Origin: Pseudonocardia oceani
GTDB taxonomy: Bacteria; Actinomycetota; Actinomycetes; Mycobacteriales; Pseudonocardiaceae
DNA: 64,000 bases
Direction of reading: 5' to 3'
Assembly (NCBI RefSeq): GCF_019263585.2
Contig: NZ_JADQDF010000001.1
Coordinates: 4,660,501-4,724,500, forward strand
Part shown: positions 15,769 to 56,947 of the stretch, piece by piece
How the letters are laid out: every line of letters starts with the position of its first letter
How positions within the stretch are numbered: position 1 is the stretch's first letter
Translations under genes and position numbers: made by a program
Notes under the pieces: generated by a model
Seen by the model: the letters and a program-made list of their open reading frames with translations, nothing else
What the model was told of the DNA's origin: nothing
The model's database searches: none

Positions 15769-15904
15769 GGCAAAAGGGTAGCGGCGACCCCCGCCGCAGG
15801 CCCGTCTTCTCTGCATCGCTGCAGCAGGTCGGGCGCCATGTCGCCCGCTCTGCGCGGCCGACAGCGGTGACTCAGACCCACCCCTGGACGTTCCGGGCCC
15901 TGGG

Positions 15905-18256: not shown

Positions 18257-18294
18257 TACGCCTCCTTGGGTCGCTCTCGCCTCGGTGGCTGTCC

Positions 18295-22545: not shown

Positions 22546-22547
22546 CC

Positions 22548-25321: not shown

Positions 25322-25495
25322 CGGCGCCTCCCGTAAATGCGGCACCGCCACCCGCCGTGACGGTGACCCGCGCCAACTTACGAGCGAGGCGCCGGCCCCT
25401 CATACGGTCTAGCAGCGAGAGAGGGCGCGGGCGAGAGGGCAGCGCCCGGCTTGCGGCAATGCCGGCGCGCACCCCTCACATCGAGGTGACCGATC

Positions 25496-27262
25496 GTGAC
25501 CCTTGCCTTCCAACCCGGTCCAGACCTGCGCGAACCGCCCGACCCTGGCCTGCCCCGACCCGAGATCGCGCGGTCCTGGGAGCGGTCGGTGCGCAGCGGG
25601 GTGGAGCGCGTCGGAGTCGAGATCCCGGGTGGCCCCGGCATCGATCGCCCGGTTCGCCTCCTGAGGTCGGCCGAGCCCGTGATCGAGAGGCTCGGGCGGC
25701 GGCTCGAAGGGCAGCCGCTGGTGATCATCCTGGCCGACGCGGAAGCGCGGGTCGTCGCCCTCAGGGCCTGCCGGGCGGACGTGCGCGACTGGTGCGACTG
25801 CCTGCACATCGTCCCCGGCTGCAGGCTGGCCGAGGAGACCATCGGGACCAACGCGATCGGGTGCGCCGTGGAGGAGCGGCGCCCGTTCGTGGTGGTCGGT
25901 CCCGAGCACTACCGGGTCAACCTCCAGGGGTTCAGCGCACGGGCGGTGCCGGTCAGGCATCCGGTGACCGGCGTACTCAAGGGGGTGCTCGCCCTGGCCT
26001 GCCGGACCGAGGACGACAGCGTCCTGATGCTGCCCCTCGTCGAGGACGCCGCGGCGCGGATCGAGACCGACCTCGGCGACGACGTCACCCGGCTGGAGCG
26101 GCGGTTGCTGGACCGTTTCCTGCAGATCACGCGCCGCTCCACAGCAGCGGTGGTCTGCCTGAACCGTGACCTGCTCATCAGCAGCACCCTTGCCGGGCCG
26201 CTGGTGAGCCCGGTGGACCAGCCGTTCCTCTGGGACTGGGCGTCGCGCAAGCTCGCCGACCGTGACGAGTACTGCGGCGAGCTGCGGCTGTCCGGCAGCG
26301 TCGTCGTGCAGGCCCGGTGCACCACCGTCCGGGAGGACGACCAGGAGGCCGGCATCTCATCGAGATGCGGCCGGGTCCGGCCCCCCTGACCGCCGTCGGC
26401 GCGCGGCGCCCCGTCACGAGCGGCACGACCGGCGAGGGCCCGGTGTCCGGGCGCAGTGCCGCGGCCGAGCGCGTCCGCCGCGAACTCACGGCCGTGGCAC
26501 GGTCCCAGGGACCGATCCTGATCACCGGGGAGCCGGGCACGGGCAAGGCCTTTCTGGCCCGCCACCTCCACGACCGCACGGGCGTGCCCGGCACCGTGAC
26601 TGTGCTCGAGACGGGGCAATGCATCGACGACCCGCTTGCGTGGTTCGAGCGGCTTCGGGCGGCTCTCGCCATCCCGGGCACACTGGTGCTGCGGCAGATC
26701 GACGAGTTGCCCGTCGAGTTCGCTCCGCGCGGTCGGCCTGGTCGAACGAGCCGACGGGCACCCGATCCAGGTCATTGCTACCGCCCGGCTGACCAACGGC
26801 GAGGACGCCATGACGCGGCTGCGCGACTGCTTCCCGGCGCGGCTGCAACTGCCCCCGCTGCGCAAGCGGGCCGAGGACGTCGCCGACATCGCGAGGGTGC
26901 TCGTTCGCGATCTCACCCGACGCTCGCCTGTGCCCCGGCTGGAGCCGGCCACGGTCCAGAACCTGATGGGCCAGGTTTGGCCGGGCAACATCCGCGAGCT
27001 TCGCGCGGTGCTGAGCAGCGCGCTGCTCCGGTCGGTCCGCCGCGACATCGCGATCGAGCACCTCCCGCCGGAGTACCGCTCGGCGCCGATCAGGCACCGG
27101 CTGACCTCACTCCAGCGGGTCGAGCGAGAGGCGCTGCTCAACGCGCTCGAGGACAGCGGCGGCAACAAGCAGGCTGCGGCCGAACTGCTCGGCATCGCCC
27201 GCTCCACGCTGTACCGCAAGATCAGGACCCTGGGGATCGACGGGCGATGCCTGAGTGGTTGA
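25496..27262 (+). pseudogene. GAF/AAA+/Fis-type activator, frameshifted (copy A)
   Basis: Counterpart of the intact activator at 45484-47283. GTG 25496 begins MTLAFQPGPDLREP; the GAF region (EETIGTNAIGCAVEERRPFVVVG) is complete. A shift near 26355, after DDQEAGI, moves to the frame with LITGEPGTGKAFLARHLHD and TLVLRQIDELPVEF, and a second near 26735 moves to GLVERADG...WPGNIRELRAVLSS and the Fis domain (GNKQAAAELLGIARSTLYRKI). Both shifts are within one gene length of an otherwise close match, so recent inactivation is likely. IS110 also separates it from its conserved promoter elements. Confidence 0.85.
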
Positions 27263-27451
27263 ACACCGGAGGAAGCGACATGCTGTTCGAGCTGAGGGAG
27301 TACACGGTCGTGCCGGGCAGGCTGCCGACCCTGATCGCCCGGTTCAACGACCACACGCTGGGGCTGTTTGACAAGCACGGCTTCGACGTGAGGTTCCCCC
27401 GCTAGCTCGGAGACCGACGATCATGGCCGTAGGCCGTGAAGGGAGTCTCCG

Positions 27452-27763
27452 ATGGCAGCACCGAAGAAGTACCCCGATGAGCTGCGTGAGCGCGCGGTCC
27501 GGCTCTACTTCGAGTCCGACCCACGCCCGGTGATCCGCCGGCTGGCCGAGCAGCTGGGCGTTCACCACGAGGCGTTGCGGACCTGGATCCGCCAGGCCCA
27601 GGCCGACCGCGGCCAGCGCAGCGACCTACCGACCAGCGCGGAGGTCGAGGAGCTGCGCCGGCTCCGGAAGGAAAACACCGAGCTGCGCCGGGCCAATGAG
27701 ATCTTGAAGGCGGCGAGTGCTTTTTTCGCCCAGGAGATGGACCCGACAAAGAGGCGATATTGA
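27452..27763 (+). CDS. IS3-family OrfA (helix-turn-helix)
   Basis: 103 residues. MAAPKKYPDELRERAVRLYFES through LGVHHEALRTWIRQAQ forms the DNA-binding helix-turn-helix, and EVEELRRLRKENTELRRANEILKAASAFF forms a leucine-zipper-like helix. The run TTTTTT at 27721-27726 within ASAFF is a plausible -1 slippage site. Reading on in the -1 frame is open (FFRPGDGPDKEAILKAVGHL) into OrfB, giving a fused transposase. Confidence 0.92.
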   Translation: MAAPKKYPDELRERAVRLYFESDPRPVIRRLAEQLGVHHEALRTWIRQAQADRGQRSDLPTSAEVEELRRLRKENTELRRANEILKAASAFFAQEMDPTKRRY

Positions 27764-28686
27764 AAGCCGTCGGCCATCTCCGTGACCGGTTCGGGGTCGA
27801 CCCGGTCCTGCGGGTACTCGACGTCGCACCCTCGACGTTCTACGGCTGGCTCACCCAACAACGGCACCCGTCGACGCGACGCCGAACCGACGAGCAGTTG
27901 CTCGCCGAGATCGTCGAGATCCACGACCGCTCCGGTGGCACCTACGGTTCTCCGCGGATCCACGCCACCCTGCACCGCCGCGGCGTGCACATCTCCCGCA
28001 AACGGGTCGAGCGGCTGATGCGCGAGCACGGCCTGCAAGGCGCGTTCCTGCGCAAGAAGTGGCGCACCACCTCGACCAGGCAGAACCCAAACGCCGACCC
28101 GGCGCCGGACCTGGTCAACCGCGACTTCACCGCCCCCGCACCGAACCGGCTCTGGGTCGCTGACGCGACCCGCGTCCCGTGCGGACAGGGCGTGTTCTGG
28201 CTCGCCGCGGTCCGTGACGCGTTCTCCAACCGGATCGTCGGCTGGCGCTGCTCGGACCGCTGCGACACCGACCTCATCCTCGGTGCGCTCGAGTACGCGG
28301 CCTGGTCACGCGGTATCCGCAACGGCCAGGTGGTCCACCATTCCGACCGCGGCTCGAATTACACGTCGCTGCGATTCGGGCAGCGACTCGACGACCACGG
28401 CATTCTCGCGTCGATGGGTTCGGTTGGGGATTCCTACGATAATGCGCTGATGGAGAACTTCTTCTCCACCCTGAAAACCGAACTGGTCTACCGGAGGTCG
28501 TGGCGGACACGGGACGAGGCCGAGAACGCGCTGTTCGCCTACATCGACGGCTGGTACAACACCCAACGCATCCAAGCCCGGCTCGGGTGGCGCTCACCAG
28601 ACGAGTACGAAGCGGCCTGGCATGCTCACACCGACGATCACCCAGCGGCTGCGGCCGCCGAACCCGACCCGGCCACCGCCAGGTAG
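27760..28686 (+). CDS. IS3-family OrfB (DDE integrase domain)
   Basis: 308 residues in the -1 frame relative to OrfA. It has HTH_21 (DEQLLAEIVEIHDRSGGTYGSPRIHATL) and an rve integrase core with RLWVADATRVPCGQG (first Asp), HHSDRGSNYTSLRFG (second Asp) and DSYDNALMENFFSTLKTE (Glu), then GWYNTQRIQARLGWRSPDEYE. A TTG at 27760 overlaps the OrfA stop, but expression is expected mainly as an OrfAB fusion by slippage at 27721-27726. Intact. Confidence 0.93.
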   Translation: MKAVGHLRDRFGVDPVLRVLDVAPSTFYGWLTQQRHPSTRRRTDEQLLAEIVEIHDRSGGTYGSPRIHATLHRRGVHISRKRVERLMREHGLQGAFLRKKWRTTSTRQNPNADPAPDLVNRDFTAPAPNRLWVADATRVPCGQGVFWLAAVRDAFSNRIVGWRCSDRCDTDLILGALEYAAWSRGIRNGQVVHHSDRGSNYTSLRFGQRLDDHGILASMGSVGDSYDNALMENFFSTLKTELVYRRSWRTRDEAENALFAYIDGWYNTQRIQARLGWRSPDEYEAAWHAHTDDHPAAAAAEPDPATAR

Positions 28687-28961
28687 CCGACACTCCGGGC
28701 TACCGGGGGAACCTCAACGTCGCGTTCATGTCACACACCGAGTTCGGCGAGAACAGCCTCGGCGAGGTCGTATACGCCGTGCGCTGGGAGTCCTACCAGC
28801 AGATGCAGGACGGCTGGTCGAAGTTCCTCGCCGACCCCGAGTGGCAGCGGGTCAAGGCCGACAGCGAGCGGGACGGGCCGCTGAACGGGGCCGTGCGCCG
28901 CAGGCTGCTCAACACCGCGCCGTTCGACGCCGGCCGGGAGGCGTAGGCGTCACCGGGCGGT

Positions 28962-29705
28962 TCAACGCCGCCACAGCACCGGGCGTGACACCAGGTCCCT
29001 GTGCTTCTTGTGCCAGTAGCCGTCGGCCTCGTCCAGGTGGTTGCGCATCAACTGCTCGGCGCAGTCCGCGTCGTTGGCCCGGAGGGCCTCGATGATGCGA
29101 GTGTGTGCGTGGGCCGCCGCGACGTAGCGCCGCGGCGAGTAGGTGACACCGCCCGCGATACCGTCGGCGACGCTGCCGAGACTCTCGACGAACACCTGAA
29201 GCACGACACTGCACGCGGCTCGCGACAGCGTCGAATGAAAGATCCGGTTCTGCTCCTGGAACACCTCGGGATCGGGGCTCTCCAGGACCACGCGGACGGT
29301 CCGCTCCATGAGGTCCAGGTCCGCTTCGGTGATCCGGGTGGCCGCCAGCCGGGCGATCGTGGGCTCGAGCGCGCGCCGCGCCTGCATCACGTCGTCGAGC
29401 GAGGCGTCCTCGAACTGCAGGATGAGGCTGAGGGCCTCGCTCAGGTCCTCCGGGCGGGGGCGGCGCACCACCGGCCCTCCGCCGGGCCCCGGACGCAGCG
29501 TGATGACGTTCCGGGTCTCCAGCAGTCGCAGCGCCTCCCGGATGGTGGAGCGTCCGACGTCAAAGCTCTCGATCATCTCCTTCTCGGTGGGCAGGACGCT
29601 GCCAGCCGGGAGCTTGGCGTCCACGATGTGGCTCGCCAGTTCGCGGGCGATGACCTCGGACATCTTCGGGCTCCGCCGGCCGCCGGTGTACGCGTCCGTC
29701 CCCAT
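28962..29705 (-). CDS. FadR-type GntR regulator (copy A)
   Basis: 247 residues. The N-terminal winged helix is MSEVIARELASHIVDAKLPAGSVLPTEKEMIESFDVGRSTIREALRLLETRNVI, followed by an FCD ligand domain (EDASLDDVMQARRALEPTIARLAA; FHSTLSRAACSVVLQVFVESLG; AHTRIIEALRANDADCAEQLMRNHLDEA). It presumably represses the cluster and senses an acyl or acid intermediate. It is transcribed divergently from the LLM gene at 30.1 kb, and a GCGCATGATGATGATAG element 48-64 bases before its ATG suggests autoregulation. Very similar to the regulator at 52273-53016. Intact. Confidence 0.9.
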   Translation of the reverse strand: MGTDAYTGGRRSPKMSEVIARELASHIVDAKLPAGSVLPTEKEMIESFDVGRSTIREALRLLETRNVITLRPGPGGGPVVRRPRPEDLSEALSLILQFEDASLDDVMQARRALEPTIARLAATRITEADLDLMERTVRVVLESPDPEVFQEQNRIFHSTLSRAACSVVLQVFVESLGSVADGIAGGVTYSPRRYVAAAHAHTRIIEALRANDADCAEQLMRNHLDEADGYWHKKHRDLVSRPVLWRR

Positions 29706-30075
29706 CTCGACACCCTCTCGCTCATGGCACCTCGGGCCGTTCCCGAATAGCTGCGCATGATGATGATAGGCAGCGCTGGCCCGCGGCGGGGACGCCCCTC
29801 GTGCCCTTCGAGCCTGCCGGTCCGGTATTCGCTGCTCACGGCCCTCGCCGTCGCCATCTTCGAGCGCGTCGGTACCCCTGATCGTGCCGCTCACAGGTCC
29901 GCTGTGTCGCAGATTCGGACAGGTACCAGCCGGATCGCGCGGCTAGCGTTCGCCCCGGCTCAAGCTTCGATCGGTCTTGCACGAAGACCGTCGCGGCCGC
30001 AGGGACACGGAGCGATCGGTAGTCCGGGGTCTGCTCCAAGGATGCCCTCACCGAACCCGATGGAGGAGTGAACAC
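29706..30075. promoter_or_regulatory. Divergent control region FadR / LLM monooxygenase (copy A)
   Basis: The 370 bases encode no protein. They hold the putative FadR-type operator GCGCATGATGATGATAG (29753-29769) and the activator-type site TGTCGCAGATTCGGACA (29905-29921). Twenty bases after the latter comes GCTAGCG, with the same spacing as GCTAGGT in copy B. A GGAGGAG ribosome site precedes GTG 30076. Confidence 0.6.
29905..29921 (+). promoter_or_regulatory. TGTNGCNNNTTCGGACA activator-type site (copy A LLM gene)
   Basis: TGTCGCAGATTCGGACA, 154 bases before the LLM start codon. It is one of four copies of this 17-mer, all upstream of oxygenase-containing operons; the equivalent site in copy B is at 53223-53239. 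Confidence 0.6.
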
Positions 30076-31281
30076 GTGAAGTTCATCTATTTCATGCTCC
30101 CGGCACTTCCGGCGACGGAGAGCGAACGGGAGGCACTGCGCCCGATCGGCCACCGGACCGAGAAGTGGCAGCAGATGCTCACCGAGGTGCGCGAGCTCGC
30201 CAAGATGGCCGACGACTACGGCTTCGAGGCGATCTGCTTCCCTGAGCACCACCTGCACACCGAGGGCATGGAGATGGGTGGGCCCAGCTCGCTCTACCTC
30301 GATGTCGCGCACCACACCAAGAACATCAAGGTCGGCCCGGTCGGTTACGTGCTGCCCAGCCACAACCCGGTCAAGCTGGCCATCGACACAGCGTGGCTGG
30401 ACCAGATGACGCAGGGCCGGACCGTCGTCGGCATGGCGCGCGGCTATCAGGAGCGCTGGTTCAACGCCATGACGCAGCTGCTACCGGTTCAGACCGCGAC
30501 CAGCGACGCGAGCGAGCGCGACAAGCTCAACCGCGAGCTGTTCGAGGAGGTCTACCGGATCCTCAAGCTGGCCTGGAAGGACGAGCCGTTCAACTACGAC
30601 GGGAAGTTCTACAAGTTCCCGTTCCCGTACCCGGCCTCCCCCTGGAAGGCGGGCGACTACACCCGCCGGTTCGGTGCAGACGGCGAGATGGGTGAGGACG
30701 GCCTGCTGCACAACATCTCCGTCGTGCCCAAGCCGTACCAGAAGCCGCACCCCAAGCTGTTCCAGGCGTTCTCGATGAGCGAGAACACGATCCGTTGGAC
30801 AGCCCGTGAGGGGATCAGCCCGGTCATCCTCACCTCGATCCCCGAGGACTACCGCAAGATGGTCGAGGCCTACCAGGACGAGGCGGGTCAGCACGGCCGT
30901 GACCTCGCACTCGGTGAGGACACCGGAGTACTGCGGTCCGTCCACTTCGGACGCAACAAGGACGAGGCGATGCGCCAGGCGCAGCGCGGGGTGTCGGGTA
31001 CCGGCTGGCGAGAGTTCTGGGGCCACCACGGCTTCTACGAGGTCTTCCGGCGCGCCGGCGAGACTGGTGACGTCCCCCAGACGATCGAGCGCATGGAGGA
31101 GTCGCACTACCTCTACGCAGGCGAGCCGAACGCGGTGGCCGACAAGATCCACGAGCTGGCCGACAACGGCAACCCGGAGTACTTCGTCTGGTGGTCCGAC
31201 CAGGGCATGTTGCCCTTCAACGAGGTCCGGCGGAACCTGCAGCTCTTCGGCGAGAAGATCATGCCCCAGTTCCCCGGCTGA
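30076..31281 (+). CDS. Luciferase-like flavin monooxygenase (LLM), intact copy A
   Basis: 401 residues of the bacterial-luciferase-like superfamily. MKFIYFMLPALP opens the barrel, and DDYGFEAICFPEHHLHTEG, NIKVGPVGYVLPSHNPVKLAIDTAWLDQMTQGRTVVGMARGYQ and SVVPKPYQKPHPKLFQAFSMSENTI follow in order. The proteins use reduced FMN (or F420) and oxygen; with a flavin reductase and ribBA nearby, FMNH2-dependent monooxygenation is inferred. GTG 30076 follows GGAGGAG. The copy B paralogue (53395-54600) has two single-base frameshifts, so this is likely the functional one. Confidence 0.9.
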   Translation: MKFIYFMLPALPATESEREALRPIGHRTEKWQQMLTEVRELAKMADDYGFEAICFPEHHLHTEGMEMGGPSSLYLDVAHHTKNIKVGPVGYVLPSHNPVKLAIDTAWLDQMTQGRTVVGMARGYQERWFNAMTQLLPVQTATSDASERDKLNRELFEEVYRILKLAWKDEPFNYDGKFYKFPFPYPASPWKAGDYTRRFGADGEMGEDGLLHNISVVPKPYQKPHPKLFQAFSMSENTIRWTAREGISPVILTSIPEDYRKMVEAYQDEAGQHGRDLALGEDTGVLRSVHFGRNKDEAMRQAQRGVSGTGWREFWGHHGFYEVFRRAGETGDVPQTIERMEESHYLYAGEPNAVADKIHELADNGNPEYFVWWSDQGMLPFNEVRRNLQLFGEKIMPQFPG

Positions 31282-31522
31282 TCGCCGGCTGACCACGGCC
31301 CATGCTCCGTGATCGTCGCAAAATAGTCTCGGTCGACGCGGTGCCGCCGTCGTCAGCGTCGACGCTGTGCGACGGCCCAGGGCCGGGTCGGGGACGACTG
31401 GCCGCAGAGGCTCACGGCGATGCTCGCCTACGCGGGCACCAAGGGCCGGCTCACCGACGACGGTGGCGGAATTCCGGGCCCACACCGAGTGGGACTGATC
31501 AACCTATTGCAAGGAGACCGAC
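31282..31522. other. Intergenic scar where copy B has an esterase gene
   Basis: Copy B has a 936-bp esterase gene between the LLM and YciI-like genes. Here only flanking sequence such as GTCTCGGTCGAC (also found after the copy B esterase) survives, plus unplaced DNA. I see no gene; the esterase appears to have been deleted. Confidence 0.5.
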
Positions 31523-31804
31523 ATGGCGTTCTTCACCGTGGTGTGGCGCTACACCGACGACATCGCGCTGATCGACGAGGCGCGCGGCCCGCACGGGGCC
31601 TATCTCAAGGATCTGATCGCATCGGGTTCGTTGCGCATCGCCGGCCCGTTCGAGGACGGCACCGGAGGCATCCTCGTGTTCGAGGTCGCCGACCACGCGG
31701 AGTTGAAGCCGCTGCTCGACAACGATCCCTACGTCGCGCGGGGCGTGGTCGTCGACACGCAGATCTATCCGTTCAAGCCGGTCCTAGGCGCATTGGCGGC
31801 TTGA
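31523..31804 (+). CDS. YciI-like protein (copy A)
   Basis: 93 residues: MAFFTVVWRYTDDIALIDEARGPHGAYLKDLIASGSLRIAGPFEDGTGGILVFEVAD...LLDNDPYVARGVVVDTQIYPFKPVLG. This is the YciI/dimeric alpha-beta-barrel fold, with the family's His and Asp (here HGAYL and DPYV). Relatives are small enzymes or ligand-binding proteins in degradation clusters, e.g. dehalogenase- or muconolactone-like. The exact reaction is unknown. ATG 31523 follows AAGGAG. It is nearly identical in plan to 55735-56016. Confidence 0.85.
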   Translation: MAFFTVVWRYTDDIALIDEARGPHGAYLKDLIASGSLRIAGPFEDGTGGILVFEVADHAELKPLLDNDPYVARGVVVDTQIYPFKPVLGALAA

Positions 31805-31809
31805 GGACG

Positions 31810-32022
31810 ATGTCCGCGCGACATGCACCCGTGGGGTCCATCGAGGTCGGGGGCGGTGCCTCGGTCTCGGCGACCGCGATGTTCCCGGCGTCCAGCGAGG
31901 CGTTCCGGGTGGTGGTCGACGTCGGCTTCGGGGACATGACCATCAGGCACCGCTGGTGAACCGGATCGACGCGGTGCCGACGGTGCGCTCATCGCCGCCG
32001 GCGTCGACGTCCTCGTCCGCTA
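31810..32022 (+). pseudogene. Metallo-beta-lactamase-fold hydrolase, multiply deleted (copy A)
   Basis: Only patches of the intact 290-residue protein at 56.0 kb remain: MSARHAPVGSIEVG, SVSATAMFPASSEAF, VVVDVGFGDMTI, and in other frames APLVNRIDAV and GALIAAGVDVL. The metal-binding HMHLDH region is gone. At least three internal deletions reduced 873 bases to about 213 while flanking genes kept their order. Confidence 0.85.
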
Positions 32023-32055
32023 GCGATCCGCCCACTCACAACAGGAGGAGAGATC

Positions 32056-32601
32056 ATGGCGTTCGACGCCAAGGTGGTCGTCACCGACCGGACCGGCGAC
32101 GGCAGGTCGGTGTTCGCCAAGGAGGCTCGACTCGAGCCGTCGTCCGTGATGGTCATGCCCGGGTCGGAGCTCTACAACATCTGGGGCACGGGTGACGGCA
32201 CCCCGATCGTCGGCGCGGGTGACAACCCCGCGACGGTGCCGTTCCCGTTCTTCCCCGGGCCGGGCGGCACGCGGTTCATCATCGTGCGGTTCGCGCCCGA
32301 CTCGACTCCGCCCACCGATGCCGGGATGGACGAGGTCGTAGCGGAGGCCGAGCAGAAGCAGCCCGGCCTGATCGGGGTGTTCGAGCCGGATGCCCCGGGG
32401 ATGCACACCACGGACAGCATCGACTACGGGATCTGCGTGGACGGTGAGATCTGGCTCGAGCTCGACGACGGCGCCGAGGTGCACGTCACGCCGGGCACCT
32501 GCGTCGTGCAGCAGGGGACCCGGCACGGGTGGCGCAACCGCAGCGACCGGCACTGCACGATGGTCTACGTACTGGTTGGAGCCGAGCGCAAATCCGGCTG
32601 A
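32056..32601 (+). CDS. Cupin-domain protein (copy A)
   Basis: 181 residues. The C-terminal half is a cupin barrel: DSIDYGICVDGEIWLELDDGAEVHVTPGTCVVQQGTRHGWRNRSDRHCTMVYVLVG, containing the G(X)5HXH-derived and G(X)5PxG(X)2H-type motifs. Many first-motif metal ligands are replaced, so metal binding is uncertain. The N-terminal half (IWGTGDGTPIVGAGDNPATVPFPFFPGPGG) is characteristic of cupins of unknown function. It follows the YciI/MBL pair and a GGAGGAG site. The paralogue at 56948-57493 is highly similar. Confidence 0.85.
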   Translation: MAFDAKVVVTDRTGDGRSVFAKEARLEPSSVMVMPGSELYNIWGTGDGTPIVGAGDNPATVPFPFFPGPGGTRFIIVRFAPDSTPPTDAGMDEVVAEAEQKQPGLIGVFEPDAPGMHTTDSIDYGICVDGEIWLELDDGAEVHVTPGTCVVQQGTRHGWRNRSDRHCTMVYVLVGAERKSG

Positions 32602-32614
32602 ACCCCTGACGGCG

Positions 32615-32647
32615 ACACCCGCCCGATTCACTGGGTCGGGCGGGTGT
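32615..32647. terminator. Bidirectional terminator hairpin (copy A)
   Basis: A perfect 12-bp stem (ACACCCGCCCGA / TCGGGCGGGTGT) with a 9-base loop lies between the convergent cupin and hydrolase genes. A different, longer hairpin occupies the same place in copy B. Confidence 0.75.
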
Positions 32648-32663
32648 GGTCATGTCCGGGGAT

Positions 32664-33461
32664 CTAGTCCCTGAGGTGGTCGAGCACCAGCGGCACGACC
32701 GTGTCGAGCTGCTCCCACTGCGGGACGTGTCCGGAACCCGGCACGATCTCGACGCGGGAGCCCGCGATGGCGACCTGGAAGTCGTGCGCGTAGGTCGACG
32801 AGATCAGCTTGTCGTCCTCGCCCCACAGGATCAGTGTTCGCGCGGTGATGCGGTGCAGCCGCTTCTTCAGGCCTTTGTCGGGTATGGGCCAGACGAACTT
32901 CCCGGTGGCCCCCAGCGCCCAGATGGAGTCGGCCATGGCGACGGCGATGTCCTTCGGGTCACTGGGCAGGGTGAGGAAATCCTGGACGGGCGCCGCGTCG
33001 AGGTTGCTGAACAGCGTCGCGACCAGGTCGGCCTGCGACATCATCATGTAGGGCGCGACCGGTTCGTCGTCGCGCCAGAGCCCGATGGGGTCGATGAGGA
33101 CGAGGTCGCTGACCCGGTCTGGCCGCAGCGCGGCGAGCTCGCAGGCCATCATCCCGCCGAACGAGCTGCCGATGACCGGCACCGAGTCCAGCCCGAGCCC
33201 GTCGAGGAGTTCGTCGTAGATCAGGATGAGGTCCCACAGCGTGTCGACGTCGTGGATGGACTCCCGGCGGGTGTCGCCGGTACCGGGGTGGTCGGGCGCG
33301 TAGACGGTGTGATGCTCGGCGATCGCGTCCAGGAAGGCGTCCCAGCGTGGGCCGCCCGCGGTGTGCAGGTAGACGACGGGGCTACCGCTCCCCGCCACCT
33401 TCACGCTCGCCTCGAAGCTGCAGTGGCGCAGCGGGACGGTCTCGGTCGTCGGTGCGGTCAT
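32664..33461 (-). CDS. Alpha/beta hydrolase (copy A)
   Basis: 265 residues. VVYLHTAGGPRW forms the oxyanion region, APDHPGTG follows, the nucleophile elbow is VIGSSFGGM (Ser100), LILWGEDDKLIS carries the acid and GSGHVPQWEQ the His. The family includes meta-cleavage product hydrolases and esterases; the substrate is unknown. ATG 33461 is followed, 25 bases upstream in transcription order, by the truncated LLM gene, an arrangement shared with 57550-59623. Intact. Confidence 0.88.
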   Translation of the reverse strand: MTAPTTETVPLRHCSFEASVKVAGSGSPVVYLHTAGGPRWDAFLDAIAEHHTVYAPDHPGTGDTRRESIHDVDTLWDLILIYDELLDGLGLDSVPVIGSSFGGMMACELAALRPDRVSDLVLIDPIGLWRDDEPVAPYMMMSQADLVATLFSNLDAAPVQDFLTLPSDPKDIAVAMADSIWALGATGKFVWPIPDKGLKKRLHRITARTLILWGEDDKLISSTYAHDFQVAIAGSRVEIVPGSGHVPQWEQLDTVVPLVLDHLRD

Positions 33462-33486
33462 GGTGTGTGTCTCCGATCCGGGACGG

Positions 33487-33938
33487 TCAGGCCTGGGCCT
33501 GGACGGCGGGCTTCTTGGCGCACTTCTCGGGCCACCACGGGTTCTCCCAGCCCTCGGCCTGCCAGAGGTTCTGGAGGTGGGGCAGAACCCGGCGACCGAA
33601 CAGCTCGATGTTCTGCATGGCCATGTCGTGGGGCATGGACCCGAACTGCAGCACCGTCATCAGATGTCCGACGTTGAGCGTCCGGCACATGTCCTCGAGC
33701 CGCTCCCGGACCGTGCTCGGGCTGCCCACGACCGCGAACCCCTTTTCGATCATGTCCTTGGCGGTGAGCGGCTTGAGGTCGACGGTGTAGTCGAGGTACT
33801 CGGGCATCCCGGAGCTGAAGAGGTTGACCATGCTCTTGTAGTCCGAGTAGCCCGGGGTCGCGATGTAGTGCGGGGGCAGGTGCAGGCCCTTGTGGTAAAA
33901 GTGCTCAAGGTGGGCGGCGAACTGCTCCTCGGCCTGGG
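33487..33938 (-). pseudogene. Truncated LLM monooxygenase, C-terminal third (copy A)
   Basis: From the right edge it reads TQAEEQFAAHLEHFYHKGLHLPPHYIATPG...SMVNLFSSGMPEYLDYTVDLKPLTAKDMIEKGFAVVGSPSTVRERLEDM to the natural stop. This matches the last about 150 of 417 residues of the gene at 58370-59623. The N-terminal 265 residues are absent: homology ends abruptly at 33938, where an oppositely oriented mhpC fragment begins. It is a recombination breakpoint. Confidence 0.88.
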
Positions 33939-34711
33939 TGCTGGAAGCAGGTCAGGGCGAGCCGCTGGTCCTCATGGCCGGCACCAGCGGGCACCTGGAG
34001 GCATACGCCCGCAACATCGCCGCGTTCGCCGAGCACTTCCGCGTCATCGCCTACGACTACCCCGGCCACGGCTACACCACGCCGGCCACCGCCGACCTCG
34101 AGCTGCCCGACTACGTCGCGCACCTGCGCGGGCTGCTCGACGTCCTCGGGGTGGACCGGGCGCACCTGTCGGGCGAGTCCCTGGGCGGCTGGGTCGCGGC
34201 GAAGTTCGCCGCCGAGTTCCCCGGGCGGGTCGGCCGGATCGTGCTGAACACGCCGGGCGGCACCATGGCCACCCCCGAGGTGATGGAGCGCATCCGCACC
34301 CTGAGCCAGGCCGCCGCGGACGACCCGAGCCCCGAGCGGATCCGGGCCCGGCTGGAGTGGCTGATGGCCGACCCGGCGTCGGTCACCGACGAGCTCGTCG
34401 ACATCCGGCGCACGATCTACGCCCAGCCCGGTTTCGCCACCTCGATGCGGCACCTGCTGTGCCTGCAGGACCCGGAGATCCGCCGGCGCAACCTGCTCAC
34501 CGGCGCCGAGCTCGCGGCGATCACCGGGCCGGCGCTGGTGATCTGGACCAGCGACGACCCGTCCGGTCCCGCCGCGGCCGGACAGGCGATGGCCGAGAGG
34601 ATGCCCGACGCCCGCTTCGAGGTGATCAAGGACGCCGGGCACTGGCCGCAATGGGAACAGGCGCAGACGTTTAACGCCTTGGCGCTCGAGTTCCTCACCG
34701 GGACCCGGTGA
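33938..34711 (+). CDS. mhpC: MhpC-like hydrolase, 5'-truncated second copy
   Basis: 257 residues from GTG 33938, starting at LEAGQGEPLVLMAGTSGHLEAYARN, which corresponds to about codon 27 of the copy at 13.9 kb. The oxyanion region, nucleophile elbow SGESLGG, VIWTSDDPSG and GHWPQWEQ are all intact. It lacks roughly 26 N-terminal residues and any evident ribosome site, so expression is doubtful although the catalytic core is complete. Its 5' end is the duplication junction with the truncated LLM gene. Confidence 0.7.
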   Translation: MLEAGQGEPLVLMAGTSGHLEAYARNIAAFAEHFRVIAYDYPGHGYTTPATADLELPDYVAHLRGLLDVLGVDRAHLSGESLGGWVAAKFAAEFPGRVGRIVLNTPGGTMATPEVMERIRTLSQAAADDPSPERIRARLEWLMADPASVTDELVDIRRTIYAQPGFATSMRHLLCLQDPEIRRRNLLTGAELAAITGPALVIWTSDDPSGPAAAGQAMAERMPDARFEVIKDAGHWPQWEQAQTFNALALEFLTGTR

Positions 34712-34800
34712 TGGCGCTGTTCGCGGTCGTGTGGCGCTACGCCGAGGACGTCGCGCTGGTCGACGAGACACCCGCAGCGCCCCCCGACGCGCCCGCCGCT
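34711..34800 (+). pseudogene. YciI-like gene, N-terminal fragment
   Basis: The ATG at 34711 overlaps the mhpC stop (TGATG). The frame reads MALFAVVWRYAEDVALVDET, clearly the N-terminus of the YciI-like proteins at 31.5 and 55.7 kb, then loses similarity and runs into the 3' end of the opposing LLM gene. It is a third, truncated family member. Confidence 0.7.
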
Positions 34801-37534: not shown

Positions 37535-38598
37535 GGGGTGAACCGGTACTGGGCGCTGGCGTTGTCGAACATGATCCGTTGGTGCAGGTCGGCCGGCACC
37601 CTGGTCTGGAACGCGCGGTGCGGGTTGTCGAAGTCCCAGTGCGGATAGTCGGTGGAGAACATCAGGACGTCCTGGCCGATGTCGCGGATCAGCGGGACGA
37701 GGTCGGCGGGACGCTCGGGCTCCTCCATCGGCTGGGTGGTGATCCGGATCCGATCGCGCAGGTAGTGCGAGGGCGGGTGTTCGAGGTCGGGCACCTCGTC
37801 GCGCAGCCGGTGGTGCAGCGCGTCGAGCCGGTGGCCCAGGGCCGGCACCCAGGCGAAGCCGCCCTCCATGAGTACGACGCGCAGGTCGGGGAACCGGTCG
37901 AAGACCCCCTCCATGATCAGGCTGATCACCTGGGCCTGGAACGCGACGGCCAGCGAGGTGTGGTCCTCGATGTAGTAGGACGGCCAGCCCGCCGCGGTGA
38001 CGGGGCCAGGGGTGGTGGACGCCGCGTGGATCCCCACCGGCAACCCGGCCCGCGTGGCCGCCTCGTAGATCGGCCAGTAGTGCCGCTTGCCCAGCGGCTG
38101 CTGAGTGCGCGGGAACAGCAGCACCTGAACGAATCCGGGGTGCGTGGCGGCCCGGTCGATCTCCGCGGCGGCGAGGCCGGGGGACTCGAACGGCACCGTG
38201 ATCGAGGCCCGCAGGCGGGCGTCGCGCTCCAGCCAGTGCTCGACCTGCCAGTCGTTGACCGCCGCGGCCAGCGCGGCCCCGTAGGCGTCGTAGCGCTGCT
38301 CGGACGCCCGGTAGAGGCAGTTCAATACCGCGTAGTCCACGCCGTAGGCGTCCAGCAGCTGCGCACGCATGAAGTCCAGGTCCGAGCCGGGCAGGCCGCC
38401 CGACGGTGGCCAGGCGTCGTGCCGGCTGGCGAACCGCGCGGCCTTGGGATAGGCGTAGCCCTTGGCGAACGGCGAGAACGTGCGCGATCCGACCAGCTCG
38501 AGGTGCCGGTGCCAGCGGGCCGGGAGGTAGGGGAGCAGCGCGGCGTCCGAGGACACCGCGTTGTGCACGTCGCAGTCGATCAACCCGTTGGTGCGCAT
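37531..38598 (-). CDS. Amidohydrolase-2 family protein 1 (copy B)
   Basis: 355 residues. LIDCDVHNAVSSDAALLPYLPARWHRHLEL carries the first metal motif (DCDVH). VLNCLYRASEQRYDAYGAALAAAVNDWQVEHWLERD, IYEAATRAGLPVGIHAAST (His) and DVLMFSTDYPHWDFDNPHRAF (terminal Asp) complete the TIM-barrel set. The family (ACMSD-like) includes decarboxylases, hydrolases and hydratases acting on ring-derived acids. Amidohydrolase 2 immediately upstream overlaps it by 19 bases and resembles it, suggesting a heteromer or consecutive steps. ATG 38598 follows GGAGG. Intact. Confidence 0.88.
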   Translation of the reverse strand: MRTNGLIDCDVHNAVSSDAALLPYLPARWHRHLELVGSRTFSPFAKGYAYPKAARFASRHDAWPPSGGLPGSDLDFMRAQLLDAYGVDYAVLNCLYRASEQRYDAYGAALAAAVNDWQVEHWLERDARLRASITVPFESPGLAAAEIDRAATHPGFVQVLLFPRTQQPLGKRHYWPIYEAATRAGLPVGIHAASTTPGPVTAAGWPSYYIEDHTSLAVAFQAQVISLIMEGVFDRFPDLRVVLMEGGFAWVPALGHRLDALHHRLRDEVPDLEHPPSHYLRDRIRITTQPMEEPERPADLVPLIRDIGQDVLMFSTDYPHWDFDNPHRAFQTRVPADLHQRIMFDNASAQYRFTP

Positions 38599-39662
38599 GA
38601 GGTGGCCTCCTCGGGCAGCCCGTAGAGGCGGGCCGCGTTGCCGTGCAGCACCTGCGCCCGCTCGGCGGGGGACAGGTGCCCCAGCAGCGTGCCCGGCCCG
38701 TCGCCGTGATGCCAGTGCGGATAGTCGCTCGCGTGCAGGAGCATCTCGGCGGACCCGATCTGCGTCAGGAACCGGTCGATCCACTCCGGGGTCGGGTCGG
38801 GCGGGCCGTCGAAGGGAGCCACGGTGAGCAGCACGTGCTCCCGGATGAGCTGCGACGGCGGCCGGTCCACCCACGGCACCTCCCGGCGCAGCGCCTTCCA
38901 GTTCTTGTCGAAGCGCCACATCAGCGAGGGCAGCCACGTCACCCCGCTCTCGAGCAGCACCACCCGCAGCCCCTGGTGCGCCGCGAAGACGCCCTCGGAC
39001 ACCAGGCTGGTCAGCTGCGACTGCAGGGTCAGCGCCGCGCCGGCGTAGTCCTCGATGTAGTGCGAGGACCAGCCGACCGGCGAGAGCGCGTTCGCCCCGG
39101 CCACCCCAGGGTGGATCGCGACGGCCATCCCCGCCGCCTCGGCGGCGGCGTAGATCGGCCAGTGCGCCCGCTGACCGAGCGGTACCTGGGTCGAGGCGAG
39201 CAGCAGGACCTGGACGAAACCGGGGTTGTCCGCCCTCCGGCGGACCTCCTCCGCCGCCGTACGCGGATCGTGCGGCGAGACCACGACGGAGGCCCGGAAG
39301 CGCGGGTCGGCGGCCAGCCAGGTCGCGGCCTGCCAGTCGTTGAGGGCGCCGGCCAGCGCCGTCGACCAGTCGGCGTTGTGCAGGGCCTGCACCGCGTAGA
39401 GGCAGTTGAGGATCGCGTGCCCGGCACCGGGGCCGTCGAGGACGTGGGCGCGCACCGTGTCCGGATCGGACCCCGGCAGGCCGGCGCCACGCCGCGCCTC
39501 GGGCCGGGCCGACAGCGGCATCCCCGCCGGGTAGAACGCGGGATCGAAACCGTCGACGCCGCTCTCCACGCAGTAGTCCACCCAGCGGTCGGCGAGGAAG
39601 GGGAACAGCGCCGACAGGTCGGGGACCGCGTTGTGCACGTCGCAGTCCACGAATCCGGTCAT
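38580..39662 (-). CDS. Amidohydrolase-2 family protein 2 (copy B)
   Basis: 360 residues. VDCDVHNAVPDLSALFPFLADRWVDYCVE (metal motif), GAGHAILNCLYAVQALHNADWSTALAGALNDWQAATWLAADPRF, AAEAAGMAVAIHPGVAGAN (His), VVLLESGVTWLPSLMWRFDKNWKALRREVPW and MLLHASDYPHWHHGD. It is a paralogue of amidohydrolase 1 with the same overall layout. Both are encoded between CoA-ester genes and the ferredoxin, so a ring-opening hydrolysis or decarboxylation of a CoA-pathway intermediate is inferred. The copy A version differs by one frameshift. Confidence 0.88.
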   Translation of the reverse strand: MTGFVDCDVHNAVPDLSALFPFLADRWVDYCVESGVDGFDPAFYPAGMPLSARPEARRGAGLPGSDPDTVRAHVLDGPGAGHAILNCLYAVQALHNADWSTALAGALNDWQAATWLAADPRFRASVVVSPHDPRTAAEEVRRRADNPGFVQVLLLASTQVPLGQRAHWPIYAAAEAAGMAVAIHPGVAGANALSPVGWSSHYIEDYAGAALTLQSQLTSLVSEGVFAAHQGLRVVLLESGVTWLPSLMWRFDKNWKALRREVPWVDRPPSQLIREHVLLTVAPFDGPPDPTPEWIDRFLTQIGSAEMLLHASDYPHWHHGDGPGTLLGHLSPAERAQVLHGNAARLYGLPEEATSCAPTG

Positions 39663-39676
39663 GGTGCACCTCCGTG

Positions 39677-40426
39677 TCAGGTCGCGGACGCCTTCGCCCG
39701 CCTGCGGAACGACCACATCTGCGGGCCGCGCTCGATCTCGAGCCCCACGTCCCACGACGTCGCGGGCGGCCCGGCCTCGCGACGGAAGGAGGCGGTCATC
39801 CGCCGGGCCAGCGCCGGATCCTTGCCGAGGCGGGCGGCGACCTGCAGCGCCGTCGCCTCGACATCGGCGTCGTCGACCGCCTGCCACGCGAGCCCGAGGG
39901 CGGCCGCCCGCTCGCCGTCGATCTCGTGGCCGAACAGCCCGACCGCCGCGGCGGCGTCCCGTCCCGCCGCCCGGCTGAGCAGCGTGAAGTGCCCGCCGCC
40001 GGGATGCACCCCGATGCGCAGGAAGCCCGAGATCAGGCGCGCATCGCGGGCGACGATGCGCAGGTCGGTGGCCAGGGCGAGGTTGAGCCCCGCGCCGACC
40101 GCGGCCCCGCGCACCGCGGCGATCGTCGCCGTCCGGCACCGGCCGACGCGCAGGAACGAGCCGTAGAGGGCGTCGATGTCGCGTTGCGCCTCGTCGTCCA
40201 GCGGGTCGTGGGCGGCCTCGCCCAGCACCCCGAGGTGCGCGCCGGCGCAGAACGACCCACCGGAACCGCGCACCACGGCCGCACCGACGTCGTCACGGGC
40301 GTCGATCTCGTCGAAGGCCGCCTCCAGTTCGCCAGCCATCTCCACGGTCAGCGCGTTGCGGCGCTCCGGTGCGGCGAGGGTGACGACGGCGATCCCGTCG
40401 CTGATTCCCCAGCGGACCTCGGTCAT
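39677..40426 (-). CDS. Enoyl-CoA hydratase/isomerase family protein (copy B)
   Basis: 249 residues of the crotonase fold. EVRWGISDGIAVVTLAAPERRNALTVEM, GSGGSFCAGAHLGVLGEAA and IAAVRGAAVGAGLNLALATDLRIVARDARLISGFLRIGVHPGGGHF. As in copy A the usual catalytic Glu pair is not obvious. The N-terminus lacks the repeat expansion seen in copy A. ATG 40426 overlaps the CoA-transferase 1 stop. Acts in beta-oxidation-like steps (inference). Confidence 0.87.
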   Translation of the reverse strand: MTEVRWGISDGIAVVTLAAPERRNALTVEMAGELEAAFDEIDARDDVGAAVVRGSGGSFCAGAHLGVLGEAAHDPLDDEAQRDIDALYGSFLRVGRCRTATIAAVRGAAVGAGLNLALATDLRIVARDARLISGFLRIGVHPGGGHFTLLSRAAGRDAAAAVGLFGHEIDGERAAALGLAWQAVDDADVEATALQVAARLGKDPALARRMTASFRREAGPPATSWDVGLEIERGPQMWSFRRRAKASAT

Positions 40427-41652
40427 GACCTGTTCTCCTTCTCGACGACGACGACGACGCCCGCCTCGGCGAGCGCGGCGATCTCCTCCGGGCCGTACCC
40501 GAGCTCGGCGAGCACCTCGCCGCCGTGCTGGCCCAGCCGTGGCGCCGGGCGCGGCCGGTCCGGATGCGACCCGTCGAACGAGATCGGGAACCGGGCCAGC
40601 CGCAGCCGGCCCTCGGAGGGATGCTCGACCTGCTCGAAGAGCCCGGCCGCAGCCAGGTGCTCGTCGGTGAAGAGGTCGGGCACCGAGTGCACCGGCGCCG
40701 CCGGGATCTCCGCCCCGCTCAGCACGGCGAGCCACTCGGCGCTCGGCCGGGCCAGCAGCTCCTTCTCGACCAGCTGGTAGAGCTCGTCGATGTTGCGGGT
40801 CCGCTCGGTGATCGTCCGGTACCGCGGTTCGGTCGCCAGGTCGGGCCGTCCGATCAACGCGAAGAACGTGCGCCACTGCGCGTCGGTGTAGACCATGACG
40901 CTCAGGTAGCCGTCGGCGGTCCGGTACGGCTTGCGGTACGGCGAGGCCGTCCGGGCGTACCCGGCCGCGCCGCGGGGCGGATCGAAGACGTAGCCGCCCT
41001 GCTGGTCCAGCAGCGTGAAGGTGACCATCGACTCGAGCATCGGGACTTCGATCTCCTGGCCACGGCCGGTGCGTCCCCTGGCGAAGAGCGCCGCGCTGAT
41101 CGCGCTGACCGCGAGCAACCCCACCGCCTTGTCGGCCACCGGCGAACGCACGTACGCGGGCTCGTCCGCCGTGCCCTGCACTGCGGCCAGCCCGCAGCTC
41201 GCCTGGATCACGTCGTCGTAGGCGGCCCGGTCCCGGTACGGGCCCTCCTTGCCGTAGCCGCGCAGCGCGCAGTAGATCGCCGCGGGGTTCACCGCGGCGA
41301 TCTCGTCGTAGCCGATGCCCAGCCGGCGTGCTGCCTCCGGGCGCACGTTGTGCACGACGACGTCGGCGGTGGCCACGAGGCGCAGCAGCACCTCACGGCC
41401 GGCCGGCGCCTTCAGGTCCAGCGCGACGCTGCGCTTGCCCTGGTTCGCGTTGAGGAACACCGGGCCCATCCCGGCGCCGCGATCGTCGCCGATGTAACGG
41501 ACCACGTCCCCGGCGGGCGTCTCGACCTTGACCACCTCGGCACCCATCTGGGCCAGCAGCAACGTGCAGTACGGGCCCATGAACGTCGAGGTGAGGTCGA
41601 CGACCGTGATCCCGTCGAGGGGACCTGCGTGCGGCGCCGTCACAGGATCCAC
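40423..41652 (-). CDS. Family III CoA-transferase 1 (copy B)
   Basis: 409 residues: GITVVDLTSTFMGPYCTLLLAQMGAEVVKVETP, NQGKRSVALDLKAPAGREVL, and AAYDDVIQASCGLAAVQG with the likely catalytic Asp. It has the same order and overlaps as copy A, with many synonymous differences, so the duplication is not very recent. Predicted CoA transfer onto a carboxylic acid intermediate. Confidence 0.92.
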   Translation of the reverse strand: MDPVTAPHAGPLDGITVVDLTSTFMGPYCTLLLAQMGAEVVKVETPAGDVVRYIGDDRGAGMGPVFLNANQGKRSVALDLKAPAGREVLLRLVATADVVVHNVRPEAARRLGIGYDEIAAVNPAAIYCALRGYGKEGPYRDRAAYDDVIQASCGLAAVQGTADEPAYVRSPVADKAVGLLAVSAISAALFARGRTGRGQEIEVPMLESMVTFTLLDQQGGYVFDPPRGAAGYARTASPYRKPYRTADGYLSVMVYTDAQWRTFFALIGRPDLATEPRYRTITERTRNIDELYQLVEKELLARPSAEWLAVLSGAEIPAAPVHSVPDLFTDEHLAAAGLFEQVEHPSEGRLRLARFPISFDGSHPDRPRPAPRLGQHGGEVLAELGYGPEEIAALAEAGVVVVVEKENRS

Positions 41653-42788
41653 GGTTCCTTCCCGGCTGCAACGTCGGCCAGCACCTGCTCGGTGTGAGCG
41701 CCCAGCGCGGGCGCCGGGCTGCGCATGGTGCCCATGACGGCGCCGTCGCGCAGCACGGGGAACAGGACGTGGCGCCCGCGGTCGCTGTCCGCGACGACCC
41801 CGCGCGCCCGCACGTGCGCGGAGCGGCTGGCCTCACCCACGGACAGCACCCGGTGTGCCGGGACGTCGGCCGCGGCGAACGCGGCCAGCCAGTCGGCGGC
41901 CGGGCGGGCGCGCACCGCGCGGCGCAGCAGCGCGACGAGGTCGTCGCCGTGCGCGCGCCGCCCCTCCGCGGAGCCGAAGCGGGGATCGGTGAGCGCCGGG
42001 ACCTCCTCGGCGAGCAGCGCGGCGAGCCGCTCCCAGAAGTGCTCCTCGACGGCGCCGATCGCGATCCGCACGCCGTCGGCGGCTTCGAACAGGTCGTTCG
42101 ACGGGTGCAGGTGCGTGCTGCTCGGGCCGCGGTCGTCCAGGCGCTGGTCGGCCCTGGTACTGGCGAAGGACAGGGCCGCGTCGGCGATCGCCAGGTCGAG
42201 GTGGGTACCTTCGCCCGTGCCCCGGCGCCGGTACAGCGCGGCCAGGATCGCGATGGCCGCGTAGGTGGACGCCGCCAGGTCGCTCACCGGTACCCCCGGC
42301 CGGGGCGGTGCGCTGTCACCCCAGCCGCCGGGGAAGGACAGCAGCCCGCTGGCCGCAAGGTAGGTGACGTCGTGGCCGGGGACATCGCGCAGCGGACCGG
42401 TCTGCCCGAACCCGGAGACCGAGCAGTAGACGATCGACGGGTTCACCGCGCGCAGCGCCGAGTAGGACATGCCGAGCCGGTCCGCCACGCCGGGGCGGAA
42501 GCCTTCCACCAGCACGTCGGCCCCGGCGGCGAGCCCGCGCCCCAGCGCCTGCCCCCGGTCGGTCTTCAGGTCGAGGACGACGCTGCGCTTGTTGCGGTTC
42601 GCCGCCTCGTGCAGGGCACCGGGCAGCTGCCGCCCCGCGTCCCCGCCCGGTCCCTCGATCTTGATCACCGTAGCGCCGAGGTCGGCCAGGATCTGGGTGC
42701 AGAAGGGACCGGGCAGGTACGCGCTCAGGTCGAGCACCCGCACCCCGGTCAGGAAGCCGGGAGGCGCGGGCGGCGGAACGGCCGTCAT
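41640..42788 (-). CDS. Family III CoA-transferase 2 (copy B)
   Basis: 382 residues from ATG 42788, which overlaps the stop of the dehydrogenase upstream (ATGA). LTGVRVLDLSAYLPGPFCTQILADLGATVIKIEGP, NRNKRSVVLDLKTDRGQ and VPGHDVTYLAASGLLSFPG hold the nucleotide-binding and candidate Asp segments. It pairs with CoA-transferase 1 as in copy A. Longer frames upstream lie within the dehydrogenase gene and were not used. Confidence 0.9.
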   Translation of the reverse strand: MTAVPPPAPPGFLTGVRVLDLSAYLPGPFCTQILADLGATVIKIEGPGGDAGRQLPGALHEAANRNKRSVVLDLKTDRGQALGRGLAAGADVLVEGFRPGVADRLGMSYSALRAVNPSIVYCSVSGFGQTGPLRDVPGHDVTYLAASGLLSFPGGWGDSAPPRPGVPVSDLAASTYAAIAILAALYRRRGTGEGTHLDLAIADAALSFASTRADQRLDDRGPSSTHLHPSNDLFEAADGVRIAIGAVEEHFWERLAALLAEEVPALTDPRFGSAEGRRAHGDDLVALLRRAVRARPAADWLAAFAAADVPAHRVLSVGEASRSAHVRARGVVADSDRGRHVLFPVLRDGAVMGTMRSPAPALGAHTEQVLADVAAGKEPWIL

Positions 42789-43900
42789 CGGGCGGCCACC
42801 GCGGCCGACCGGCCGGTCAGCAGGTCCCACAGCCCGTCGGGGCCGGCGCTCGTGACCCGCGCGCCCAGCTCGGCCGCCCATTCGGACTCGGCGCCGTACT
42901 CGTCGCGCCACGCCATGAGCCTGCGCGTGTGCAGGTGAAGCTCGTGCTCGGTGGTGAAGCCGAACGCGCCGTGTACCTGGTGCCCGACGGCGATCGCGAC
43001 GGACGCGGCCTGCCCCGCACAGATCTTCGCCGCCATCACGGCCTCGGCTGCGCAGCCGCCATCGTCGAGGACGGCCACGGCCAGGTCGGTCATGGCCTGC
43101 GCCTGCTCGACGGCGCCCGCGAGCGCGGCGATCTGCTGCTGGACGGCCTGGAACCGGCCGATCGGACGGCCGAACTGCTCGCGCTCACGCGCGTACCCCA
43201 CGGTCAGGTCGAGCACCCGGCGCAGCGACCCGACCATCAGCAGGGCCCGGCCCAGCGCCCCCCGCAGCACCGCCGCGGACGGGTCCGGGCCGTCGGCGGG
43301 CAGCGGCGTGCACGCGACGCCGCCGGCGGGCAGCACGAGGGTGTCGCGCGGCTCGGCGGCGAGGTTCGTGCCGGGTTCGACGGCACAGTCGCGCGGGTCG
43401 ACCGCCGCGAGCACGACCCGGCCCGGATCCCCCGGCGCCGCGGTGAGGAGGAGGACCTGCCGGGCGGCCCGCGCCCACGGGACGCCGCAGAGCCGGCCGT
43501 GGACGCGGAGGCCGGGACCGTCGGGCGCCAGCGTGGCGGATGCGGCGGCGGCGGACGGCACGACGGTGAGCGGGCCGGGCGGCACCGCGAGCCCGGCCGC
43601 CGCGAGCGCCCAACCAGCCAGCAGCGCGGTCTCCACCAGCGGCACCGGGGCCGCCTGGTAGCCGCAGGCCTGGGCCACGACGGCGAGGTCGCTCACGTCG
43701 CCCCCGGAGCCGCCCGCCGATTCCGGAACGGAGACGAGGGTGAGCCCGGCCTCCTCCAGGAGCGCCCACAGGCCGGGGCTCCACCCCTGCCGGGCCGCAT
43801 CGGCGCGGGCGGAGGGCGCCCGGTCGGTCAGCAGCCTCGCCACGGTCGCCCGGAGCAGATCCCGCTCGTCCCCCTCGACGGTTCCCGGCATCTCAGGCAT
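42785..43900 (-). CDS. Acyl-CoA dehydrogenase, small-type subunit (copy B)
   Basis: 371 residues, MPEMPGTVEGDERDLLRATVARLL through VPESAGGSGGDVSDLAVV, REQFGRPIGRFQAVQQQIA and VHGAFGFTTEHELHLHTRRLMAWRDEYG. It lacks the canonical FAD segment, consistent with pairing with the large-type partner encoded upstream. Because of a frameshift in that partner, the two genes form one 747-residue open frame from 45025; a separate start at ATG 43900 or 43891 is still available. Probably functional if its partner comes from copy A. Confidence 0.85.
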   Translation of the reverse strand: MPEMPGTVEGDERDLLRATVARLLTDRAPSARADAARQGWSPGLWALLEEAGLTLVSVPESAGGSGGDVSDLAVVAQACGYQAAPVPLVETALLAGWALAAAGLAVPPGPLTVVPSAAAASATLAPDGPGLRVHGRLCGVPWARAARQVLLLTAAPGDPGRVVLAAVDPRDCAVEPGTNLAAEPRDTLVLPAGGVACTPLPADGPDPSAAVLRGALGRALLMVGSLRRVLDLTVGYAREREQFGRPIGRFQAVQQQIAALAGAVEQAQAMTDLAVAVLDDGGCAAEAVMAAKICAGQAASVAIAVGHQVHGAFGFTTEHELHLHTRRLMAWRDEYGAESEWAAELGARVTSAGPDGLWDLLTGRSAAVAAR

Positions 43901-52260: not shown

Positions 52261-52272
52261 CCGGGCGGCTGC

Positions 52273-54600: not shown

Positions 54601-54618
54601 CCCGACACGCTCGGAATG

Positions 54619-54652: not shown

Positions 54653-54712
54653 TCCCCGTGCCGACCGAACGGGTCGTCGACGACCCGTCCCCCATGACGA
54701 AGGGATCTCCCG

Positions 54713-56913: not shown

Positions 56914-56947
56914 CGATCCGCGCAGTTCCCCGACAGAAGGAGAGATC

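Follow-up and report, generated by a model that had tools for sequence, protein, structure and literature searches.

The closest described events are tandem duplications in E. coli, for which the formation of join points and the remodelling of the amplicon take place within hundreds of generations (PMC8763031). That report describes amplified copies, joints with little identity between the fused sites and later deletions of co-amplified genes, and in these respects the locus studied here is similar. It differs in that its two copies have diverged (dS = 0.35) and that the joint between them is dated by the selection on the gene stumps that meet there. The genes concerned belong to well-described families. 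By sequence, mhpC is a C-C hydrolase of the MhpC/HsaD/BphD type (7zjt, 2vf2, 2og1, 1u2e), and a LigB-type gene lies upstream of it, both in copy A and at a third locus; however, mhpC of copy B lacks its N-terminus and that of copy A carries a stop. The second gene, LLM1, encodes a luciferase-like monooxygenase. The full-length gene of copy B matches the family (PF00296; nearest solved chain 7bip), whereas that of copy A is reduced to its C-terminal third.

The window is a stretch of 64,000 nucleotides (G000:C3:4660501-4724500) on a 6.66 Mb contig of the Pseudonocardia oceani genome (G000; 6.82 Mb in three contigs). It contains two copies of a gene cluster, collinear and in direct tandem, that are about 84% identical when the window is compared with itself by BLAST. 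Copy A (14018-33936, + strand) contains frameshifts, deletions and two inserted transposase units, and copy B (33938-58819, + strand) consists mostly of open reading frames. Four repeat pairs, all with E = 0 and far past chance, relate them: 14018-14794 with 33938-34714 (88.2% over 777 bases, gapless across the gene), and, each at 83.9%, 16818-23772 with 38221-45126, 28952-31283 with 52260-54601 and 32014-33936 with 56904-58819. Two stretches of copy B, 34.7-37.2 kb and 47.6-52.3 kb, have no counterpart in copy A in this comparison. The cluster includes a LigB dioxygenase, a C-C hydrolase, luciferase-like monooxygenases, amidohydrolases, a CoA transferase, acyl-CoA dehydrogenases and an AMP-binding enzyme, a family content that suggests the catabolism of a cyclic or aromatic compound. 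To the left of copy A, all on the + strand, lie ribBA (DHBP synthase/GTP cyclohydrolase II, 10787-12139), a flavin reductase gene (12174-12674) and mhpB_A (13006-13930), a LigB-type ring-cleavage dioxygenase in which PF02900 is split across two frames. An alpha/beta hydrolase gene adjoins LLM1 in copy A (32664-33461, - strand), with its equivalent in copy B at 57550-58347. The LLM4 gene of copy B (53410-54894) is one base short near its 3' end relative to the B copy of the sister species G063 and to G082, such that its frame continues into the next gene.

At 33.9 kb LLM1 and mhpC sequence meet directly. The preliminary description claimed that the two homologies switch at one exact breakpoint, and this is borne out: in the self-comparison homology to LLM1 extends as far as 33936 and homology to mhpC starts at 33938, and the alignment of the joint to both parent genes that had been proposed shows a single switch within 33935-33939. 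Base 33935 matches only LLM1 and 33939 only mhpC; 33936 and 33938 are compatible with both parents and 33937 with neither, the small ambiguity arising from bases common to the two. The parents are identical at seven of the nine bases over 33936-33944 (counted by hand), so that a short microhomology at the joint is possible. We saw no insertion sequence or remnant of one at this position, and rejected an insertion-sequence-mediated joint because LLM1 abuts mhpC with no such element between them.

Both genes at the joint are truncated, and their complete-length counterparts occupy the outer ends of the two copies, as had been described. The LLM1_A stump (33487-33936, - strand) comprises residues 269-417 of 417, i.e., the last 149 codons plus the stop codon, with no internal stop or indel relative to LLM1_B; its first ATG, GTG or TTG is the 36th codon. 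The mhpC_B stump (33938-34711, + strand), an alpha/beta hydrolase gene without its first 25 codons, aligns with copy A without gaps and begins at native codon 26, where a GTG at the joint opens a frame of 257 amino acids. The strands that open the hydrolase fold at its N-terminus would be absent from this stump. The start lies at approximately residue 27-30 of the solved homologues, as extrapolated from 7zjt and 2og1. LLM1_B (58370-59623, - strand; 417 amino acids) lies at the right end of copy B, and mhpC_A (13943-14791, + strand) at the left end of copy A. The latter is interrupted in frame by a stop at codon ~263 of 282; the G063 orthologue lacks this stop. Residues 1-268 of LLM1_A are gone and the joint offers it no nearby start codon, and mhpC_B has lost its N-terminus; both stumps are probably dead.

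How old is the joint? The geometry of a duplication joint alone neither dates nor defines a duplication; a late deletion between old copies gives the same anatomy. Selection on the stumps can separate the two. If the joint were the original end of the duplicated unit, both stumps would have drifted neutrally for the whole of the A/B divergence, and this is not seen. Substitutions were polarised by outgroup majority, with unresolved sites split evenly. Using two outgroups that are both distant (dS about 0.8-0.9), the LLM1_A stump has undergone 16 synonymous and 17 non-synonymous changes on the A branch (10 and 6 unresolved); using six, of which one (G005) falls inside the A/B group, the mhpC_B stump has undergone 19 and 9 on the B branch (5 and 5 unresolved). 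The corresponding dN/dS values, 0.26 (bootstrap 0.14-0.46) for LLM1_A and 0.18 (0.09-0.36) for mhpC_B, are like those of intact genes: the nine other values for the A branch are 0.19-0.63 and the nine others for the B branch 0.19-0.43, the hydrolase (0.55) and ACAD2 (0.63) being relaxed in copy A. Compared directly, the A and B versions differ by dS = 0.51 and dN = 0.092 for the LLM1 stump and by dS = 0.36 and dN = 0.060 for the mhpC stump, corresponding to 23 amino acid differences in 149 and 27 in 256.

Simulation of neutral drift gave far more change than this. Over the whole A branch (taken as 0.6 of dS), LLM1 acquired at least 55 amino acid changes in 1500 of 1500 runs, and over the whole B branch (taken as 0.4 of dS) the minimum for mhpC_B was 42 in 1500 runs. 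For LLM1, drift confined to half of the branch would still be unlikely to give so few changes (mean 45, minimum 22); a quarter of the branch (mean 25) is compatible with the data. Neither stump contains a stop or an indel, an absence that is weak evidence alone in such GC-rich DNA (P = 0.12 and 0.23). Gene conversion was rejected as a source of the apparent constraint, as the dS values of the stumps (0.51 and 0.36) are not below those of eight other genes (0.30-0.39). During most of the A/B divergence, purifying selection acted on both stumps.

The joint is likely to be a young illegitimate join, most simply a single deletion, between two previously diverged copies. On this account copy A, to the left, and copy B, to the right, would both have been complete and would have coexisted for a long time. 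One deletion across their boundary, between LLM1_A and mhpC_B, would then have taken out two thirds of LLM1_A from its 5' end, any sequence separating the copies, and the left edge of copy B. We infer that this edge probably comprised ribBA_B, the flavin reductase gene, mhpB_B and codons 1-25 of mhpC_B. A search of G000 for the lost portion of LLM1_A (E ≤ 1e-20, six candidates scored) gave only the copy B gene and the copy A stump, and the next match to ribBA in this genome is at 77%; on our reading the sequence has therefore been lost rather than moved. The loss would have been tolerated in the presence of a full LLM1 in copy B and of an open mhpB-mhpC pair 6.5-9 kb beyond the right end of the window (L042, ~6480-8963). 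At this third locus mhpC is open and identical to that of G063 across 744 columns, a 309-codon open frame spans mhpB, and a GntR-like gene and an LLM2 homologue lie nearby. Such an event is ordinary genome remodelling, for which the test of age is here unusually clear.

Copy A itself is damaged. Besides the stop in mhpC, amidohydrolase and regulator genes are among those with frameshifts and deletions, some of the single-base lesions being potential sequencing errors. An IS110-type transposase gene (24215-25351) and a second (27452-28686), which we take to be of the IS3-like type, lie within copy A; both are absent from copy A of G063, and they were probably inserted after the split of the two species. 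G063 has both copies in the same A-B order, at 98.5-99.6% identity to the window over long stretches. The lesions in its copy A are mostly different from those in the window (amidohydrolases 1 and 2, regulator). Common to both are one early stop in the regulator and lesions close to the ends of ACAD1, amidohydrolase 2 and CaiB1, though some of the gaps in common may instead reflect changes in copy B and some paired small gaps are alignment noise. To judge from these lesions the decay of copy A has been in part independent in the two sister species, and this copy seems to have been released from selection around the time of their split (core dS = 0.01). The locus thus offers a datable case in which one of two tandem cluster copies decays in a pair of sister species. 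A Mutator-family transposase gene (2932-4197) and a 3.1 kb stretch with a gene for an FAD-binding protein (59840-62975) are also absent from the equivalent sites in G063.

The boundary between the copies in G063 differs from the joint in the window. It passes from the hydrolase of copy A (33249) through 2.9 kb to LLM2 of copy B (35517), and G063 is therefore uninformative on whether the window joint was present in the common ancestor. The 2.9 kb segment contains IclR-, TSUP- and IS110-like open frames, assigned to these families by eye. We considered whether this segment might be the spacer that first separated the copies: DNA similar to its IclR/TSUP-like stretch occurs in G070; in G000 there are only weaker, partial matches, about 4 Mb away.

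We have placed the two copies among their relatives by two genus-wide searches with core DNA, each of 62 genomes including G000, and by retrieving the cluster region from nine of the best-matching genomes. Only G000 and G063 among the 62 have two core matches above 80%, and no relative among them has both copies with an intact boundary. G082 has one B-type cluster, on a 27.9 kb contig that ends before LLM1, with 92.6% identity to copy B over 18 kb and about 83% to copy A. Its ribBA and flavin reductase genes lie directly to the left of the cluster, and mhpB, mhpC and most of LLM2 are missing there; among the genomes examined no B-type cluster has a complete mhpC. G033, G026 and G085 each have one cluster, of another branch, with the core lacking hydrolase and LLM1 neighbours in the fetched stretches. 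Those of G070 and G071, again one each, fall outside both groups, and G066 and G069 match only partly. Seven core genes (6243 columns) gave the tree ((A, G063-A),(G082,(B, G063-B))) with all clade forks at 100/100. Core dS is 0.35 (0.31-0.38) for A versus B, 0.16 (0.14-0.18) for B versus G082, 0.41 (0.37-0.45) for A versus G082 and 0.48 for A versus G033; core dN is 0.095 for A versus G082 and 0.036 for B versus G082. From the tree and these distances, the separation of the copies would be older than the G082 branch, provided that B was not transferred later.

Transfer of copy B is the basis of the main rival explanation. A relative close to G082 could have contributed a B-type segment that was joined illegitimately to a resident copy A in the common ancestor of G000 and G063, so that the tandem and the joint arose together; a subsequent rearrangement involving IS110-like DNA would then have removed the joint from G063. 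This has in common with a late deletion that the joint is young. It would account for a dS between B and G082 (0.14-0.18) that is below that of housekeeping genes, where pooled stretches of rpoB, gyrB and recA gave 0.24 (0.21-0.27) for G000 versus G082 with loci that differ in rate and an aberrant gyrB in G063. Synonymous changes are also more numerous in A than in B in 10 of 10 genes, with GC3 of copy A mostly lower. G070, which is nearer to G000 than is G082 by housekeeping genes, carries a third type of cluster that lies outside the A/B/G082 group, from which horizontal exchange at this locus is likely within the genus. On the other hand, the dS between B and G082 is close to that of rpoB and recA taken singly (0.18 and 0.21), so that vertical descent is possible; A, B and G082 form one clade (100/100); and an A-like mhpC-GntR relic is kept in G005, albeit weakly placed in the tree. 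We consider such a transfer unlikely as the origin of the joint. The gyrB gene of G063 (L214) is itself divergent, with dS = 0.35 to G000 compared with 0.06 for rpoB and 0.03 for recA.

The preliminary description proposed a tandem duplication of a unit running from within mhpC to within the LLM gene, with the copies diverging afterwards. The direct tandem arrangement, with truncated genes inside and complete-length genes outside a single switch point, is as it described; the identification of the joint with the original ends of the unit is not supported. On anatomy alone a duplication with these ends is the simpler explanation, as one event suffices and nothing is missing. It also agrees with the distribution of the joint, which was found in no single-copy relative. 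Among the best 13 candidates per genome, in a search that was not exhaustive, the joint is present in only 1 of the 62 genus genomes, G000 itself; 22 of the 62 matched somewhere, and each apart from G000 on one side only, the search giving nothing for G026 although its mhpC was found by another. Among the matches listed for 60 genomes, a query of 601 bases was matched over its full length only in G000. The single-copy relative with complete mhpC and LLM1 genes at its ends that had been proposed was found in none of the nine fetched genomes (four DNA queries), the G082 contig stopping before LLM1. Plasmid origin was rejected: 3.9 kb around the joint gave 41 records in PLSDB, none covering 80% of the query, 15 of them being mhpC-sized matches at 64-71% and two others matching at 80-90%. 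A literature search, judged on titles and the openings of abstracts and thus not proof of absence, found no published report of the locus.

The selection on the stumps described above, where a duplication joint would predict drift, makes this origin of the joint distinctly improbable. The left flank may point the same way, with moderate support. If ribBA and the flavin reductase gene were a single unduplicated flank, the window pair should lie near dS = 0.16 (as for B) or 0.24 (as for housekeeping genes) from that of G082. The observed values are dS = 0.47 and dN = 0.097, close to those of the core for A versus G082 (0.41 and 0.095) and not to those for B versus G082 (0.16 and 0.036), despite the closeness of the G082 cluster to copy B, and G082 is no closer than G033 (dS = 0.41) or G013 (0.44). 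The ribBA tree joins the window, G063 and G082 at 80/86, and in the two-gene tree the G082 fork is unsupported. The paralogous unit may have extended beyond mhpC-LLM1, perhaps to include ribBA and the flavin reductase gene. Replacement of the pair by transfer is also possible, given the distances to G033 and G013 relative to the core genes.

Could the stumps encode short proteins with a function, maintained by selection ever since the copies arose? The open frame of mhpC_B from the GTG at the joint and the purifying selection on both stumps are in accord with this. However, in the LLM1_A stump the 35 codons that precede any ATG, GTG or TTG are as constrained (A/B dN/dS = 0.18) as the remainder (also 0.18), and mhpC_B begins only at about residue 27-30 of the solved homologues, so that we regard this reading as very improbable. 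An assembly or sequencing artefact, to which some of the single-base frameshifts of copy A might be ascribed, is scarcely credible for a joint between copies about 16% different, with no insertion sequence seen there, on a 6.66 Mb contig and with the same A-B order in G063.

Is the mhpB-mhpC edge of the cluster prone to breakage? Candidate breaks there are LLM1_A/mhpC_B in the window, hydrolase_A/LLM2_B in G063, flavin reductase/LLM2 in G082 and mhpC near codon 36 in P. hydrocarbonoxydans. We suggest only tentatively that the edge is a recurrent breakpoint zone with up to four independent breaks, expendable where an intact mhpBC is present elsewhere, with copy A decaying in parallel in the two sister species.

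Other relatives have rearrangements of their own. G071 has the core cluster, and its hydrolase and LLM1 pieces are joined across a separate gap of about 1.4 kb; at this locus (L176, G071 C1 ~4543458) the independent gap links the hydrolase gene to the 5' end of LLM1, and ribBA adjoins. The cut mhpC of P. hydrocarbonoxydans (L056, ~9970-10741) lies beside frames that by eye are ABC-transporter-like, and precedes a GntR gene, as its counterpart in copy A does.
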